NCBI GenBank assembly: GCA_947627945.1
Contig: CANQYC010000003.1
Location: 1 to 41,699 of the forward strand
Direction of reading: 5' to 3'
DNA: 41,699 nucleotides
Source: an uncultured Clostridia bacterium
Lineage (GTDB): Bacteria > Bacillota > Clostridia > Oscillospirales > Ruminococcaceae
Shown here piece by piece: positions 21,301 through 28,306 of the stretch. A program made the translations under genes and the position numbers. A model generated the notes under the pieces. The model did not search any database. It was not told where the DNA came from and saw only the letters and a list, made by a program, of their open reading frames with translations. Each line of letters starts with the position of its first letter. Within the stretch, counting starts at the first letter, position 1.

Positions 21301-22425
21301 TCAGATGTCAATGTCCAGTGTGATGTGGAATGCATAGTCGGGGTAGGCTTTCTGGACATCGTCAGAAATATGCCGGAAGAGGGCATATCTGTCCGACAGA
21401 CCGTAGTCGATGATCACATCGAAACTGGCGGTCTTCTGTTCCGGCTCCGCATAAAAGCCATGCAGCTGCAGGACGCCCTCATGCCCGAGGACGATCTTCC
21501 GGATCTCCTCCCGCATGGAACAGACAGTACTGTCCCGCAGATCGACGGCGTAGATGCCGATGCAGGTCATCAGGACGCCGTGCCGCTTGAGGACATCGCC
21601 GGCGATCCTGCGCTGCATGCGGTCGATCTCCTTGGCGGTCATCGTATCCGGCACCTCCACATGGACGGAGCCGATGCAGAGATTCGGTCCGTAGCTGTGC
21701 AGCATCAGATCATAGGCACCCTGCACGCAGCTGTCTGCGCAGATGGTCTCACGGATGGCTGCAAGATAGGCACTGTCGAACCGCTTGCCGAGGAGATCAT
21801 CGAATGCCTCCATCAGCAAGGATACGCCCGTCCGGATGATGACGCCTGCAATGAGCAGTCCGACCACCGGCTCCAGCCGGATGTGCGTCAGCAGGAAAAG
21901 CACGGCGCAGAGCAGGACGGAGAGCGATACGACCGCATCGAAGAAGGCATCCGCACCGGAGGCGGTGAGCGCACCGGAATGCACCTTTTTGCCGACCATG
22001 GAAACATACTTTCCGAGCAGGAGTTTTACGATCACTGCCATGATCAGAATGCCGATGGAGAGCGGGGAGTAGTCCGGAGTCTCCGGATGCAGCAGCTTCT
22101 TGATGGATTCCACACCGGAGGCGATGCCGGCGTACAGCACGATGGCAGCGACGATCATTGCGCTGAGATATTCGATACGCCCGTGGCCGAGCGGGTGTTT
22201 TTTGTCGGGCATTTTCCCGGCAAGGCGTGTGCCGATGATGGTGACAACGGAGGAAAGCACATCGGTCAGGTTGTTGATGGCATCGAGCAGGATGGCGATA
22301 GAATGGGCAAATATACCAGTCACTGCCTTTGCTGCAGCAAGCAGCAGATTGGCAATGACGCCGATGGCACTGGTACGGATAATGATCCTGTCACGTTCTT
22401 TCTGTGTCATGTCCGGATGTTCCAT
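21301..22425 (-). CDS. Cation diffusion facilitator family metal exporter
   Basis: 374 residues with six predicted membrane helices in the first 210 and a C-terminal cytoplasmic domain (about 215-374, IGSVHVEVP). Family signatures include HSIAILLDAINNLTD in helix 2 and KKHPLGHGRIEYL after helix 3. In helix 5 the metal site reads D-x3-D (GADAFFDA) rather than the H-x3-D usual in zinc exporters, hinting at manganese or iron; this is inference. It exports divalent cations from the cytoplasm. The C-terminal domain is longer than average, with a tail after the normal alpha/beta module. AAGGAGA precedes the ATG at 22425. Confidence 0.92.
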   Translation of the reverse strand: MEHPDMTQKERDRIIIRTSAIGVIANLLLAAAKAVTGIFAHSIAILLDAINNLTDVLSSVVTIIGTRLAGKMPDKKHPLGHGRIEYLSAMIVAAIVLYAGIASGVESIKKLLHPETPDYSPLSIGILIMAVIVKLLLGKYVSMVGKKVHSGALTASGADAFFDAVVSLSVLLCAVLFLLTHIRLEPVVGLLIAGVIIRTGVSLLMEAFDDLLGKRFDSAYLAAIRETICADSCVQGAYDLMLHSYGPNLCIGSVHVEVPDTMTAKEIDRMQRRIAGDVLKRHGVLMTCIGIYAVDLRDSTVCSMREEIRKIVLGHEGVLQLHGFYAEPEQKTASFDVIIDYGLSDRYALFRHISDDVQKAYPDYAFHITLDIDI

Positions 22426-22512: not shown

Positions 22513-24219
22513 TTACATCTGTGCGTTGAACAATGCGCCGAGCTTATAGGTCACATCCTCGGAATCGGCATCAATGGTCGCTGCCTCGTTGATGTCAGAA
22601 AGCTGTCCCAGTTCTTCGAGATCGGCATTGTAGCCGATGGTGTAGACGGGGATCTTGAGGGCGGAGACCACATCGGAGATCTTCTCCAGGCTGTTGCCCA
22701 CATTGGTCTCGCCGTCACTGAGGACGAACAGCATGAGCTTTGCATCCGGGATGGTCTGCTTTGCCTCCTGCAGCATCCGGATGCCCTGCAAAACGGCATC
22801 ATAGGTGCATGTCGAGCCGGAGGCGGACAGATCCTCCACGGCACCGGTGAAATAGGAACGCTGGTCGAGATCAAACTGTGCGATCGGGAGGTTGACAGTG
22901 ACATGGCTGCTGTAGGAGATCAGACCGATGTAGTTGTTGTTGCTGATGTACTGCGAAGCACTGATGAGGGAGGTCTTGAGGTTGTTCAGCGGCACGCCCT
23001 CCATACTGCCGGACACATCGGCGACAAACACTGCGACAACGGGCTTGCCGGAGTCCTTTTCCCGTTTCCAGAGCTGCTGGGCATTGAGCAAGGTGACGGC
23101 ATCAAATTCCGGTTCTGTGCTTTTATAGTCATCCATCTGGTTGAAGCCGTAGCGTTTTGCGGAATCCTGCTGCTCCTTGCCGAGGCAGTACTCTGTGAAG
23201 GCACGGAGGACTTCCTGCTTCTCCGGTCCGATGTTGCCGACCTCGTAGAGGGGGTTGTCATGGCGCACGCCGAACGGGAAGAACTGATACTGCTTCTGGA
23301 GCGTGGAATCGTTGACATAGGACTGATATTCCATGATACAGGCATTCAGGGAACCGCTGCTCATGGCGTTGCGCATCTGCATGGTGGTGTAGCAGACAAA
23401 GGGGACGTTCGCCTGAAATTTCTGGAAGGCACTGACAGCCGTGCTGCCCAAGGGGTCGTTATTGTCAAAGCTGTACAGTGAGGATACGAGAAAATTCAGT
23501 CCTGTGGAGCTGGTGTAGGGGTAGGTATATCCCATGGAGACTTTTCCGTCCATGGTGCCCTGTGTGATGGTCTCGATGCTGACAGAGCCGTAGTCCGCCG
23601 TGATCGTCTTGACCATATTATCCGCCAGCAAAATGCCTGCTACATTGCCGACAAGGCGGTCTGTGCCGTTTTCCAGACTAAGTTCGGCACCGTTTGCCTC
23701 CGCCATTGCACCCCACATCGTATTGGACGGTGTGAAGGCATCCGGAAGATATTTCCCGGATACGATGTAGTCCGATGCCATGCCGGAGGAAATGTTCCGG
23801 ATGGAGACGGACATCGTCCTGCCGTCCGAGGTGCGCATCTTCTGGGAATTGAAAGACTCGGCGGCTTCATTGATCCAGCCGTCTGTGCCGGTGCCGGATT
23901 TTTCCGGGGAGGCGAAGATCTCGATGTCGATATCCCCTTCCCCGCTGACGCTCAGCGGATACTGCTCAATATCCGGCAGGGAGGCTGCCAGATCCGTATC
24001 GACAAAATTGACGGGTGCCTTTCTTGGCTCCACGCTGGTCACTTGGATACCACGCAGCATTCTGTCCAGTTTGCGGTTCGCCTCTTCCTCAGAGATCTCA
24101 TAGGACGTCTTGCCGAGGTTGCCGGTGATGAGGACGCCGCCGATAATGGCTGCCATTACCAGTACGCCGATGCCGATAAGCAGACCAATGATCTTGGTAT
24201 TCTGATTGGGATTTGCCAT
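22513..24219 (-). CDS. Membrane-anchored substrate-binding and von Willebrand A domain protein
   Basis: 568 residues. One membrane helix near the N-terminus (about 9-33) leaves the rest outside the cell. Residues about 96-365 resemble a bacterial solute-binding protein (GDIDIEIFASPEKS, NTMWGAMAEANG, MGYTYPYTSSTGLNFLV). Residues about 394-560 are a VWA domain with a complete metal-ion-dependent adhesion site: D401-x-S403-x-S405, T472 and D502. No ABC transporter genes adjoin it, so binding is more likely used for sensing or complex assembly than for uptake. It starts 16 bases after the two-helix membrane protein gene and is probably co-transcribed with it. Partner and ligand are unknown. Confidence 0.85.
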   Translation of the reverse strand: MANPNQNTKIIGLLIGIGVLVMAAIIGGVLITGNLGKTSYEISEEEANRKLDRMLRGIQVTSVEPRKAPVNFVDTDLAASLPDIEQYPLSVSGEGDIDIEIFASPEKSGTGTDGWINEAAESFNSQKMRTSDGRTMSVSIRNISSGMASDYIVSGKYLPDAFTPSNTMWGAMAEANGAELSLENGTDRLVGNVAGILLADNMVKTITADYGSVSIETITQGTMDGKVSMGYTYPYTSSTGLNFLVSSLYSFDNNDPLGSTAVSAFQKFQANVPFVCYTTMQMRNAMSSGSLNACIMEYQSYVNDSTLQKQYQFFPFGVRHDNPLYEVGNIGPEKQEVLRAFTEYCLGKEQQDSAKRYGFNQMDDYKSTEPEFDAVTLLNAQQLWKREKDSGKPVVAVFVADVSGSMEGVPLNNLKTSLISASQYISNNNYIGLISYSSHVTVNLPIAQFDLDQRSYFTGAVEDLSASGSTCTYDAVLQGIRMLQEAKQTIPDAKLMLFVLSDGETNVGNSLEKISDVVSALKIPVYTIGYNADLEELGQLSDINEAATIDADSEDVTYKLGALFNAQM

Positions 24220-24235
24220 GACTCTCCATCCTTTC

Positions 24236-24940
24236 TTATAGCTCCTGCGACCCCTGCTGCATCATCATATCACTTTCCTCCGCAGGGGCGGCATGCTCAT
24301 CCCGCAGCTCCCGCAGGGCTTCTGTGATATTGTCCAGATGCAGGTTTTCAAGGTCTTTGGAATCACCGATCTGTGAGATCTCGATGATCAGGTTGTCATA
24401 TTGTGACAAGAGCTGTTTGTTCTGTCCCAGTACATGATGTACAAACTCGTTGTGCAGGGGGTATTTTGACTGATCTGTCGGGTCGAGGATGGTCATCCGG
24501 TTGAGCAGCTTGCGCATGTTGGACAGCAGACAATGCCGGACATCCTCACTGACAGAGAGGAATGGGTTCCCCTCCTCCTTTGCATTATCCCCCAAAAGTG
24601 CTTTCAGTGCGGTCTCCTTCTGGCAGAACAGGTCAAGCTGGTGGACAGCCTGCCGCAGCTCCGGATTAAAGGGATTCTGCTTTTCCTGCCATGCCTCAAG
24701 GGCATCACGGTAATCGTCCAGATCTTTGAGCTTGTCGGTGCTGACATGCCTTCGTTTGCCGGAGCCGGTCAGTATCCAGTAGTTGATGCCGACAAATGCT
24801 GCCACGCTGAGCAGTGCGGCAAGCAGTGCCGGGATCAGATGTGCGCCGAGATCCAGAAGTCCCCTTGAGAACAGGACGATCTCCACGATCACAAAAAGAA
24901 TATTGAACACAGCAAGCAGTACCTTTGTTTTACTTTTCAA
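24236..24940 (-). CDS. Two-helix membrane protein with helical cytoplasmic domain, unknown function
   Basis: 234 residues from a TTG start at 24940, chosen because GAGAGGTG lies 6 bases upstream and the membrane helices follow directly. Helices are at about 6-27 and 32-56; the remaining 175 residues are charged and mostly helical (for example QLLSQYDNLIIEISQIGDSKDLENL) and probably cytoplasmic. The plan resembles XpaC-type proteins, often found with TelA and VWA genes in Firmicutes, but I cannot confirm that family. Its own promoter and a short hairpin precede it. It is co-directional with the VWA protein gene, suggesting a joint membrane complex. Confidence 0.75.
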   Translation of the reverse strand: MKSKTKVLLAVFNILFVIVEIVLFSRGLLDLGAHLIPALLAALLSVAAFVGINYWILTGSGKRRHVSTDKLKDLDDYRDALEAWQEKQNPFNPELRQAVHQLDLFCQKETALKALLGDNAKEEGNPFLSVSEDVRHCLLSNMRKLLNRMTILDPTDQSKYPLHNEFVHHVLGQNKQLLSQYDNLIIEISQIGDSKDLENLHLDNITEALRELRDEHAAPAEESDMMMQQGSQEL

Positions 24941-25024: not shown

Positions 25025-28000
25025 TCACTTTGCGCACAGATATTGCTTCAGGATATGATAGAGCTGTTCGATCTTGAAGGGTTTCGCAAGGTGATCATTC
25101 ATGCCGGCATCAATAGCGATCTGTCTGTCCTCATCGAAGGCATTGGCTGTCATGGCTACGATCGGGATCCCCGCAAGCTTCGGATCTTTCAGGGCACGTA
25201 TCTCCTTGGTCGCCTCATAGCCGTCCATGACGGGCATCTGCACATCCATGAGTATGAGCTGATACTGACCGGGCTGCGAGGTACGGAGCATTTCGACCGC
25301 TTCCCTGCCATTCTCGGCGGTATCCACATTGACGCCCATATTGCTGAGTATTTCGACGGCGATCTCACGGTTCAGCTCATTATCCTCCGCAAGCAGGACG
25401 GTCTGTCCGTCAAATTTCTGATCCTCCGGATCCTTGGGAGCCGCATTCTCGCCCTTGCCGGTCACTCTCACAAGTGCATAATGGAGATCGTTCACGAACA
25501 GGGGCTTGCTGATGAAATCGGTGACGCCTGCTTCTCTTGCTTCGTCCTCGATATCTGTCCAATCATATGCGGAGAAGAGGATGATAGATGCATCCTGCTT
25601 GATCACTCTCCGGATCTGTCTTACGGTCTCGATGCCGTTCATGTCCGGCATCGACCAGTCGATGATATACAGCATATAGGGGTCGCCGATCTCATGTGCC
25701 TCTTTGGCTCTGACGACGGCTTCTTTTCCGTACATTGTCCATTCCGGACGCATGCCGACCTGCCGGAGCATTTTGGTGACGCTCTGGCAGCTTGTGACAT
25801 CGTCATCTACGACCAGACTGCGCACGCCCTCGAGTTCCTTGATGGCAGTCGGCTCGTAAGGCTTTCCGTGTATGCGGAATGTCAGGTCGATCGTGAATTC
25901 GGTGCCCTTGCCCGGTTCGCTGTTCACCGCAATGGTACCGTTCATCATGTCCACGATGTTTTTGGTGATGGACATGCCAAGACCTGTGCCCTGGATACCG
26001 CTCACGGTGGATGTGCGTTCACGGGTGAACGGCTCGAAAATGGTCTTGATGAACTCGGGGTTCATGCCGATGCCGGTGTCCTTGACGACAAATTCATAAT
26101 TCCGGTGCTGCTCGTCCTCTGCCGGACGCTGTGTGACTTTCAGGGAGATGGCACCGCCCGGATTTGTGAATTTGATGGAGTTGGAGAGCAGATTCAGCAG
26201 GATCTGGTTCAGGCGGAGCTTGTCGCAGAAGATGTTCTCATTTGTGACATCTATCGTGTCGATGTAGAATTCAAGATGCTTGGCATGCACATCCGCCTGA
26301 ATGATGTTCCGCAGCTCCTGCAGGATCTCGGACAGGCTTTCCGGTTTTTCCTCGATCACCACATTTCCGGATTCAATGCGGCTCATATCCAGCACATCAT
26401 TGATCAGAGAAAGCAGATGGTTGGAGGACTGTGAGATCTTCGCAATGTAGTCCTGCGCCTTTTCCTTGTTGTCGAGATGGGTGGCGGCAAGGGAGGTAAA
26501 CCCGATGATCGCATTCATGGGGGTGCGGATATCATGTGACATATTGTTCAGGAACGTGGTCTTGGCACGGTTTGCCTGATCTGCCATTGCCAATGCCTTG
26601 GAGAGTTCTTTCTCCTTGATCTCATACTTCTCAGTGACCTCGTCGACCTTCCGCTGCAGCATCTTCTGTGAACGGGTGCGGATCAGCAGGATGATGCAGA
26701 TAATGGCAAAAAGAGACACAAACAGCACTAAGATCATGCAGTAGACGGGGTTGGAATACAGCATGGCGACAAGTGTCTTATTCCGGTTTGCGCTGTGCAG
26801 TCCGGATTCTTTCAGGATGATATTGGAAAGATCTGTTTCGCTCATGGCGGAAAGCTCTTTGTTCAGAATGGAGATCAGTTCGTGCTTCTCGTCGTCTTTG
26901 ACGCCGATCGCAAAGGGGAGCGTCATATCGCCGACAAGGGAGTAGGAATAGCGGTTTTTCACATCATCCTGAACCATTTTTTCTGCCCGGTAAGCGAGCA
27001 GCAGCAGGGCATCCGCCTCGCCCTTGTCCACGGCATCGATGCACTCTTCCATGCTGTCATGGAAGATGATGTTGTCCTCGGAGTAGATGTCTGTGATGTT
27101 CGTTGTCAGGAAGTCGGAACGCTTGACGGTCGTGATCTTCTGGATGTCACCGTTGCTTTTCTGGGTGAGCAGTGCCATATTCCCCTGCATATAGCCACGG
27201 GTGAGCTTGTAGCCCTCATCCTCTGCAACGGAATTGGAAAAGGTATAGTCCAGTACGATGTCCGCTTCGCCATTTTCACGCATCTCATAATATTCATCAC
27301 GGGTGGACGTCTGGATAAAGTCGTAAGGGATCTTCTCCCCTTCTGCGATATGGCGGAAGACCTCCGGCACGATGCCCTTTGCCTCGCCGTTTTCAAAATA
27401 GGAATACGGGTTGCGGTCGGGGTTCATCAGCACATGGAGCGTTCTTCCGGAGGCAAGGAGTTCCTCGAGATAGGCACGCTCGTCCGCATCCAGCATGATC
27501 GTACCGCCGGAGTCGGTCGCATAATATTTCTGATGCAGGACGCTTCTCCAGTCCGACTCGTTCAGATCCAGCTCATGGATGGCATTATTGATGCGATCCA
27601 TCAGCTCGGGGGCGTCCTTGTTTACGGCGACATAGAAATTCGCTTCGTTCATGGATTCGATCAGCCACTCATCATTCAGCCTGCGCAGGCTCCCCGAAAC
27701 GATGCCATCGACGGCACCTGTCTGCAATGCCTGTGTCAGCTCGCTCTCCGTGGTATAATAGGCGGGCGTATAGGTGAAATCATGCTCCTTGGAAAAATTT
27801 TCAAAATCGTTGTTTTTGGAATTCCCTGTCAGCATTCCGATCTTCAAACCATCGTAGGTCGTATAATCCCCGGCAATGACATGTGTATTCCCTTCCTTGA
27901 CTGTGAAGATCGTAGAATTGGTGCCGATCGGTTCTTCGGAAAACAGGAAGATCTTCTCCCGTTCCGGTGATTTGGAGACCGATGTGACAACGTCCAGTTC

Positions 28001-28306
28001 GCCGTTTTGGAGCATTTCGAGGCTGTCGGCATAGGATCTGTCGTAGCCGACATATTCAAATGTCCAGTCGTCCAAAATGCTAATCTTCTGGAAAAATTCA
28101 TAGCCGTAGCCTGTCCTTGTCCCGTCCTCATCGATCTCGTGGTATCCCGAAAATGCAAAAAAGCCCACTTTGAACGTATCGGTGTTTCCAGCCGCAGCAT
28201 GTACTGCAAGCTCTGCAAAACTGCCCTGCAGCAGCATTGTGAGGATGCAGCAGACAAGCAAGAGCCGGGAAATGCACAAGGGCAGGTGCAGCGTGTTTTT
28301 GTTCAT
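25025..28306 (-). CDS. Hybrid histidine kinase with two extracellular solute-binding domains and two receiver domains
   Basis: 1093 residues. A signal/membrane segment (about 11-37) is followed by two SBP_bac_3-type domains in tandem outside the cell (about 44-265 and 285-505). Next come a membrane helix (about 518-543), a short coiled coil and a HisKA domain with the phosphorylated H591 in NMSHDIRTPMNA. An HATPase domain follows with N (NLLSNSIKF), DTGIGM and GTGLGMSI boxes. Receiver 1 (about 828-948) has D883 and receiver 2 (about 968-1090) has D1021. It resembles BvgS/EvgS-type sensors of amino acids or similar solutes. No DNA-binding output gene adjoins it, so the target of the relay is unknown. 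Confidence 0.92.
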   Translation of the reverse strand: MNKNTLHLPLCISRLLLVCCILTMLLQGSFAELAVHAAAGNTDTFKVGFFAFSGYHEIDEDGTRTGYGYEFFQKISILDDWTFEYVGYDRSYADSLEMLQNGELDVVTSVSKSPEREKIFLFSEEPIGTNSTIFTVKEGNTHVIAGDYTTYDGLKIGMLTGNSKNNDFENFSKEHDFTYTPAYYTTESELTQALQTGAVDGIVSGSLRRLNDEWLIESMNEANFYVAVNKDAPELMDRINNAIHELDLNESDWRSVLHQKYYATDSGGTIMLDADERAYLEELLASGRTLHVLMNPDRNPYSYFENGEAKGIVPEVFRHIAEGEKIPYDFIQTSTRDEYYEMRENGEADIVLDYTFSNSVAEDEGYKLTRGYMQGNMALLTQKSNGDIQKITTVKRSDFLTTNITDIYSEDNIIFHDSMEECIDAVDKGEADALLLLAYRAEKMVQDDVKNRYSYSLVGDMTLPFAIGVKDDEKHELISILNKELSAMSETDLSNIILKESGLHSANRNKTLVAMLYSNPVYCMILVLFVSLFAIICIILLIRTRSQKMLQRKVDEVTEKYEIKEKELSKALAMADQANRAKTTFLNNMSHDIRTPMNAIIGFTSLAATHLDNKEKAQDYIAKISQSSNHLLSLINDVLDMSRIESGNVVIEEKPESLSEILQELRNIIQADVHAKHLEFYIDTIDVTNENIFCDKLRLNQILLNLLSNSIKFTNPGGAISLKVTQRPAEDEQHRNYEFVVKDTGIGMNPEFIKTIFEPFTRERTSTVSGIQGTGLGMSITKNIVDMMNGTIAVNSEPGKGTEFTIDLTFRIHGKPYEPTAIKELEGVRSLVVDDDVTSCQSVTKMLRQVGMRPEWTMYGKEAVVRAKEAHEIGDPYMLYIIDWSMPDMNGIETVRQIRRVIKQDASIILFSAYDWTDIEDEAREAGVTDFISKPLFVNDLHYALVRVTGKGENAAPKDPEDQKFDGQTVLLAEDNELNREIAVEILSNMGVNVDTAENGREAVEMLRTSQPGQYQLILMDVQMPVMDGYEATKEIRALKDPKLAGIPIVAMTANAFDEDRQIAIDAGMNDHLAKPFKIEQLYHILKQYLCAK

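Follow-up and report, generated by a model that had tools for sequence, protein, structure and literature searches.

A conserved two-gene unit lies on the reverse strand of the window, by which we mean the whole stretch of 41,699 nucleotides analysed here from an uncultured Clostridia bacterium (genome G000). It consists of a gene for a protein of 568 aa, in which a solute-binding domain is fused to a VWA domain (the SBP-VWA protein, 22513-24219), and a gene for a small membrane protein of 234 aa (the partner, 24236-24940). The pair is real and well conserved, and it is a variant of a domain fusion and a gene cassette which are already catalogued. With a confidence that stays somewhat short of even, we read it as the sensing, extracytoplasmic half of a device against envelope stress, which would be related to the TelA/XpaC cassettes and would use a lineage-specific membrane partner.

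The SBP-VWA open reading frame is preceded by a good Shine-Dalgarno sequence and its product is predicted to be extracytoplasmic and membrane-anchored. The protein begins with a single hydrophobic segment as the putative membrane anchor (residues ~10-30, 24130-24192, hydropathy up to 2.85), followed by a type II solute-binding domain of SBP_bac_11 type (residues ~89-370, 23110-23955) and by the VWA domain (residues 394-568, 22516-23040), all on the reverse strand. The VWA domain was recognised by Pfam (PF00092, residues 397-554, E=7e-15). The solute-binding domain of the window protein itself falls just under the Pfam cut-off (PF13531, residues 109-359, E=1.7e-4, 21.8 bits against 25), and its assignment is stronger because 20 of 23 homologues match the same family at E<=0.01 (best 5.5e-10), a support which is independent of the AlphaFold model. 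That model has a mean pLDDT of 71 and a pTM of 0.66, with parts of low confidence; it matches the solved solute-binding protein 4r6y (E=2.3e-7, 347 columns, TM 0.61 by target length), from which the predicted structure appears to hold the two-lobed fold of such proteins, and the same search of the PDB also returned hundreds of VWA domains. The fusion had been proposed in an earlier note from the letters of the sequence, and it was borne out by the domain matches and by the structure prediction. The note had also placed the protein on the outer face of the membrane, and this agrees with the N-terminal segment and with the lipobox-like signal peptides which replace the anchor in homologues of L111, L060, Variovorax and Sphaerotilus; both domains probably stand outside the cell.

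The metal site of the VWA domain was found complete, as had been stated, with D401, S403 and S405 in the DxSxS motif (D401-V-S403-G-S405, 23005-23019) and the distal T470 (22810-22812) and D502 (22714-22716). Conservation was analyzed over 26 homologues, which span four bacterial phyla and come from Clostridia, Cyanobacteria, Betaproteobacteria and Deinococcus. Only ten residues are invariant among them, and five of these are the MIDAS residues. Seven of the ten lie in the VWA domain (D401, S403, G404, S405, T470, D502 and G503) and the other three, E106, P323 and Q351, in the solute-binding domain. Since the full MIDAS is invariant in all 26 homologues, the metal site is almost certainly in use.

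The partner has two N-terminal membrane helices by hydropathy, and in the structure model the remainder is a helical bundle, for which the distribution of charges suggests a cytoplasmic location. Its product has no Pfam or NCBIfam family, and its predicted fold matched nothing in the PDB at E<=0.001. A small membrane-protein gene was found upstream of the SBP-VWA gene and on the same strand in all 15 loci of the same genus that include the upstream DNA, and likewise in all 12 of the more distantly related Clostridia loci, giving 27 of 27 in total, with outer neighbour genes that vary; the one exception in spacing is G314, where a single SBP-OmpA gene lies between the two. The conservation of the gene pair, on which the earlier proposal of a joint membrane complex depended, was thus confirmed. 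The partners of the genus and of the other Clostridia fall into one family in profile comparison (99.7%, E=4e-26), and this family, conserved across Clostridia, is covered by no Pfam model. XpaC (PF10112) was tried as its identity and rejected: there was no Pfam match, and HHalign against 27 PF10112 proteins gave a probability of 27% over about 50 columns near the end, with 2.5% for the reversed alignment that served as control. The two N-terminal membrane helices with a presumably cytoplasmic helical domain do give the partner the topology of XpaC, so that it is XpaC-like in position and topology and may work like XpaC by analogy at most.

Full-length homologues of the SBP-VWA protein were found in 12 further genomes among 293 sampled of the class, and more remote matches in Nonomuraea, Streptomyces and Miltoncostaea; no relative was found on viral contigs. 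The tree of these proteins has two deep clades, each supported at 100/100, of which one holds the window protein. Four of the six members of the sister clade sit in a cassette with TelA, namely G044 (L060), G285 (L144), Variovorax and Sphaerotilus, and the remaining two, G267 and Deinococcus, keep the rest of the cassette without it. The cassettes of G044 and G285 consist of SBP-VWA, XpaC, a second SBP-like protein and TelA, and that of G267 of the first three. Those of Variovorax and Sphaerotilus have the second SBP-like protein, TelA, SBP-VWA and a small membrane protein, and that of Deinococcus has the same set without TelA. For the small membrane proteins in Variovorax, Sphaerotilus and Deinococcus an identity as XpaC was likewise not established (37%), and they do not match the window partner (0.3%). 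The second SBP-like proteins (L060 7579-8661, L144 8303-9565, L145 5364-6434, L148 4091-5212, L149 4490-5632 and L150 5868-6917) are mutually homologous, with E down to 1e-84; those scanned match no Pfam family, and the label SBP-like is what a reading of their sequences suggests.

Within the window's own clade, telA lies directly downstream of the pair in G315, with 18 bp between the genes, and adjoins the pair in divergent orientation in G314. Chance adjacency in these two genomes is unlikely, because telA is present in only 86 of the 293 class genomes. The majority of the clade members are without telA, it stands beside the pair in none of the genus loci examined, and neither TelA (PF05816) nor XpaC was found in the window genome, which is 81% complete. 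The hint at TelA- or XpaC-like partners in the neighbourhood thus held for the cassettes of the relatives and for the G314 and G315 pairs, and failed for the partner itself, which is not XpaC by sequence, and for G000, where TelA was not found.

Some further features of these loci were recorded. In the G314 cluster (L111, 8268-16923), TelA, SBP-VWA and the partner stand together with genes for an ABC ATPase and a permease-like protein and with two fusions of an NMT1-type SBP to OmpA, whose OmpA domains hint at a cell-wall connection. In some congeners and one relative of the same order (L066, L067, L070) telA occupies a separate locus away from the SBP-VWA pair, accompanied at least in L066 by TerD-like genes. 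The SBP-VWA/TelA cassette of the Variovorax plasmid (L148, 1-15455) is flanked by a flotillin-domain gene and by Wadjet (JetA-type) anti-phage genes. PADLOC, which covers known anti-phage defence, matched neither the SBP-VWA protein nor the partner of the window.

To read the pair as a sensor half that serves against envelope stress draws on the domains, the invariant MIDAS, the conserved pair, the XpaC-like topology and position of the partner and the TelA/XpaC cassettes of the relatives. This reading is weakened by the failure of the partner in the XpaC test, by the fact that TelA and XpaC were not found in G000, and by the lack of telA beside the pair in the genus loci examined and with most members of the clade. 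In the mechanism which we propose, the solute-binding domain would bind a small solute outside the membrane, which may be an oxyanion, a metal complex or an envelope-derived molecule, and, depending on the ligand state, the VWA domain would expose its MIDAS metal differently, and with this metal it would grip an acidic residue of a surface partner. The anchor helix of the SBP-VWA protein would pack on the pair of membrane helices of the partner (24236-24940), and the cytoplasmic bundle of the partner would relay the state inward, to TelA in complete cassettes and to another acceptor here, and the expected outcome would be protection from envelope or toxic-ion stress. A ligand-controlled membrane complex of the two proteins is plausible; we infer the topology, the physical complex, the ligand control and the stress role of the pair, the last of which is borrowed by analogy from TelA/XpaC. 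TelA and XpaC are tied to envelope stress, and we know of no sensor for them. The SBP-VWA proteins are concrete candidates for this missing input, as they recur beside both in several bacterial phyla and their metal site is strictly conserved, and the window's clade offers a minimal two-gene version. It is also possible, though on balance unlikely, that in Clostridia the pair works on its own as a ligand-gated complex for signalling or gating across the membrane, in which the MIDAS metal contact would be the switch and TelA would be dispensable.

The neighbouring genes offer other explanations. Directly 3' of the SBP-VWA gene and on the same strand lies a CDF cation-efflux transporter (21301-22425, PF01545, E=6.5e-41), a possible accessory, and neighbourhood tblastn showed such a gene in this place in 8 of 14 genus loci. 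The SBP-VWA protein might then sense or buffer an external divalent cation as part of a metal-homeostasis unit, and the CDF protein of G028, which is merely 27% identical to that of the window, speaks against mere synteny; the transporter is missing in the other six genus loci, however, it adjoins the pair nowhere outside the genus, and the set of metal ligands could not be assigned, which leaves this explanation improbable. The hybrid histidine kinase on the other side (25025-28306, reverse strand) is built of two SBP_bac_3 sensor domains, a HisKA domain, a HATPase domain and a pair of receiver domains, and it lies on the same strand only 84 nt from the partner gene. An accessory ligand receptor for this kinase would be in keeping with such an arrangement and with the kinase's own periplasmic sensor domains, but the kinase adjoins the pair at no other locus, and the single close homologue seen, in G007, is about 13 kb away from the pair there. 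The kinase was accordingly rejected as a conserved functional partner, and we give the receptor role a low probability.

The VWA domain and the solute-binding domain may also be read each on its own terms. Adhesion is a common role of MIDAS VWA domains; the MIDAS is the most conserved part of the protein and relatives of the organism inhabit the rumen and the gut, so a surface adhesin or cell-wall anchor could be imagined, in which the MIDAS would bind an extracellular polymer or a host or plant ligand and the solute-binding domain would merely hold or position the VWA domain. We consider this rather improbable, as neither the conserved two-helix membrane partner nor the TelA/XpaC linkage of the relatives is adhesin-like, and neither repeats nor a cell-wall anchor were seen within the 568 residues. 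The solute-binding fold could instead point to a substrate-binding subunit that an ABC importer has left behind as a relic or orphan, and the ABC ATPase and the permease-like gene of the G314 cluster might be quoted in favour of this; G314 is the only place where ABC genes were seen near the pair. No ABC permease or ATPase was recognised beside it in the window or in the genus loci, and most Clostridia are alike in this. The VWA fusion and its strictly conserved MIDAS point to a different task, and an importer relic is very improbable. The earlier statement that no permease or ATPase gene is near therefore stands for ABC genes and has to be corrected for the CDF transporter.

The earlier note knew of no characterised system of this kind. 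The fusion and the cassette are indeed uncharacterised, and our literature search, which reached few of the subscription journals, found no paper on a link between SBP-VWA and TelA; the pair is less isolated than was thought, since the architecture has an NCBI name and the cassette is widespread. NCBI lists a "substrate-binding and VWA domain-containing protein" (Variovorax WP_162570944, Streptomyces) with the same signal or anchor, SBP_bac_11 and VWA, a full MIDAS and a length of ~520-570 aa, and the architecture is thus already catalogued and not new. The window protein differs from the Variovorax type in belonging to the separate deep clade (100/100), whose members are mostly membrane-anchored and have their own two-helix partner. 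The cyanobacterial plasmid vWA proteins of Stanieria and Pseudanabaena are 30-33% identical over 86% of the window protein with the same domain order, but their genes have band 7/prohibitin, protease and CHAT/caspase-type neighbours, and the two-helix partner family was not seen there; MazF-like genes were also noted near the SBP-VWA homologues of these loci (L141-L143).

The best profile and fold matches of the VWA domain are the inter-alpha-trypsin inhibitor (ITI) heavy chains and alpha2-delta of the voltage-gated calcium channel. In alpha2-delta a ligand-binding domain on the outer face is likewise joined to a MIDAS VWA domain, but it has Cache domains and binds a channel, so the likeness to the SBP-VWA protein is an analogy only. 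A further comparison is with the TelA/XpaC envelope-stress genes of Listeria (lmo1966-1967) and Lactococcus (llmg_1115-1116), with which the relatives of the window protein share cassettes; the window's partner resembles XpaC in its two-helix topology but is not XpaC by profile, and the window genome differs from these systems in that neither TelA nor XpaC was found in it. In Lactococcus both genes, XpaC and TelA, are part of the CesSR envelope-stress response and are up in it (PMC3139573), and in Listeria the disruption of telA led to higher sensitivity to nisin and tellurite, as cited in PMC12791056.
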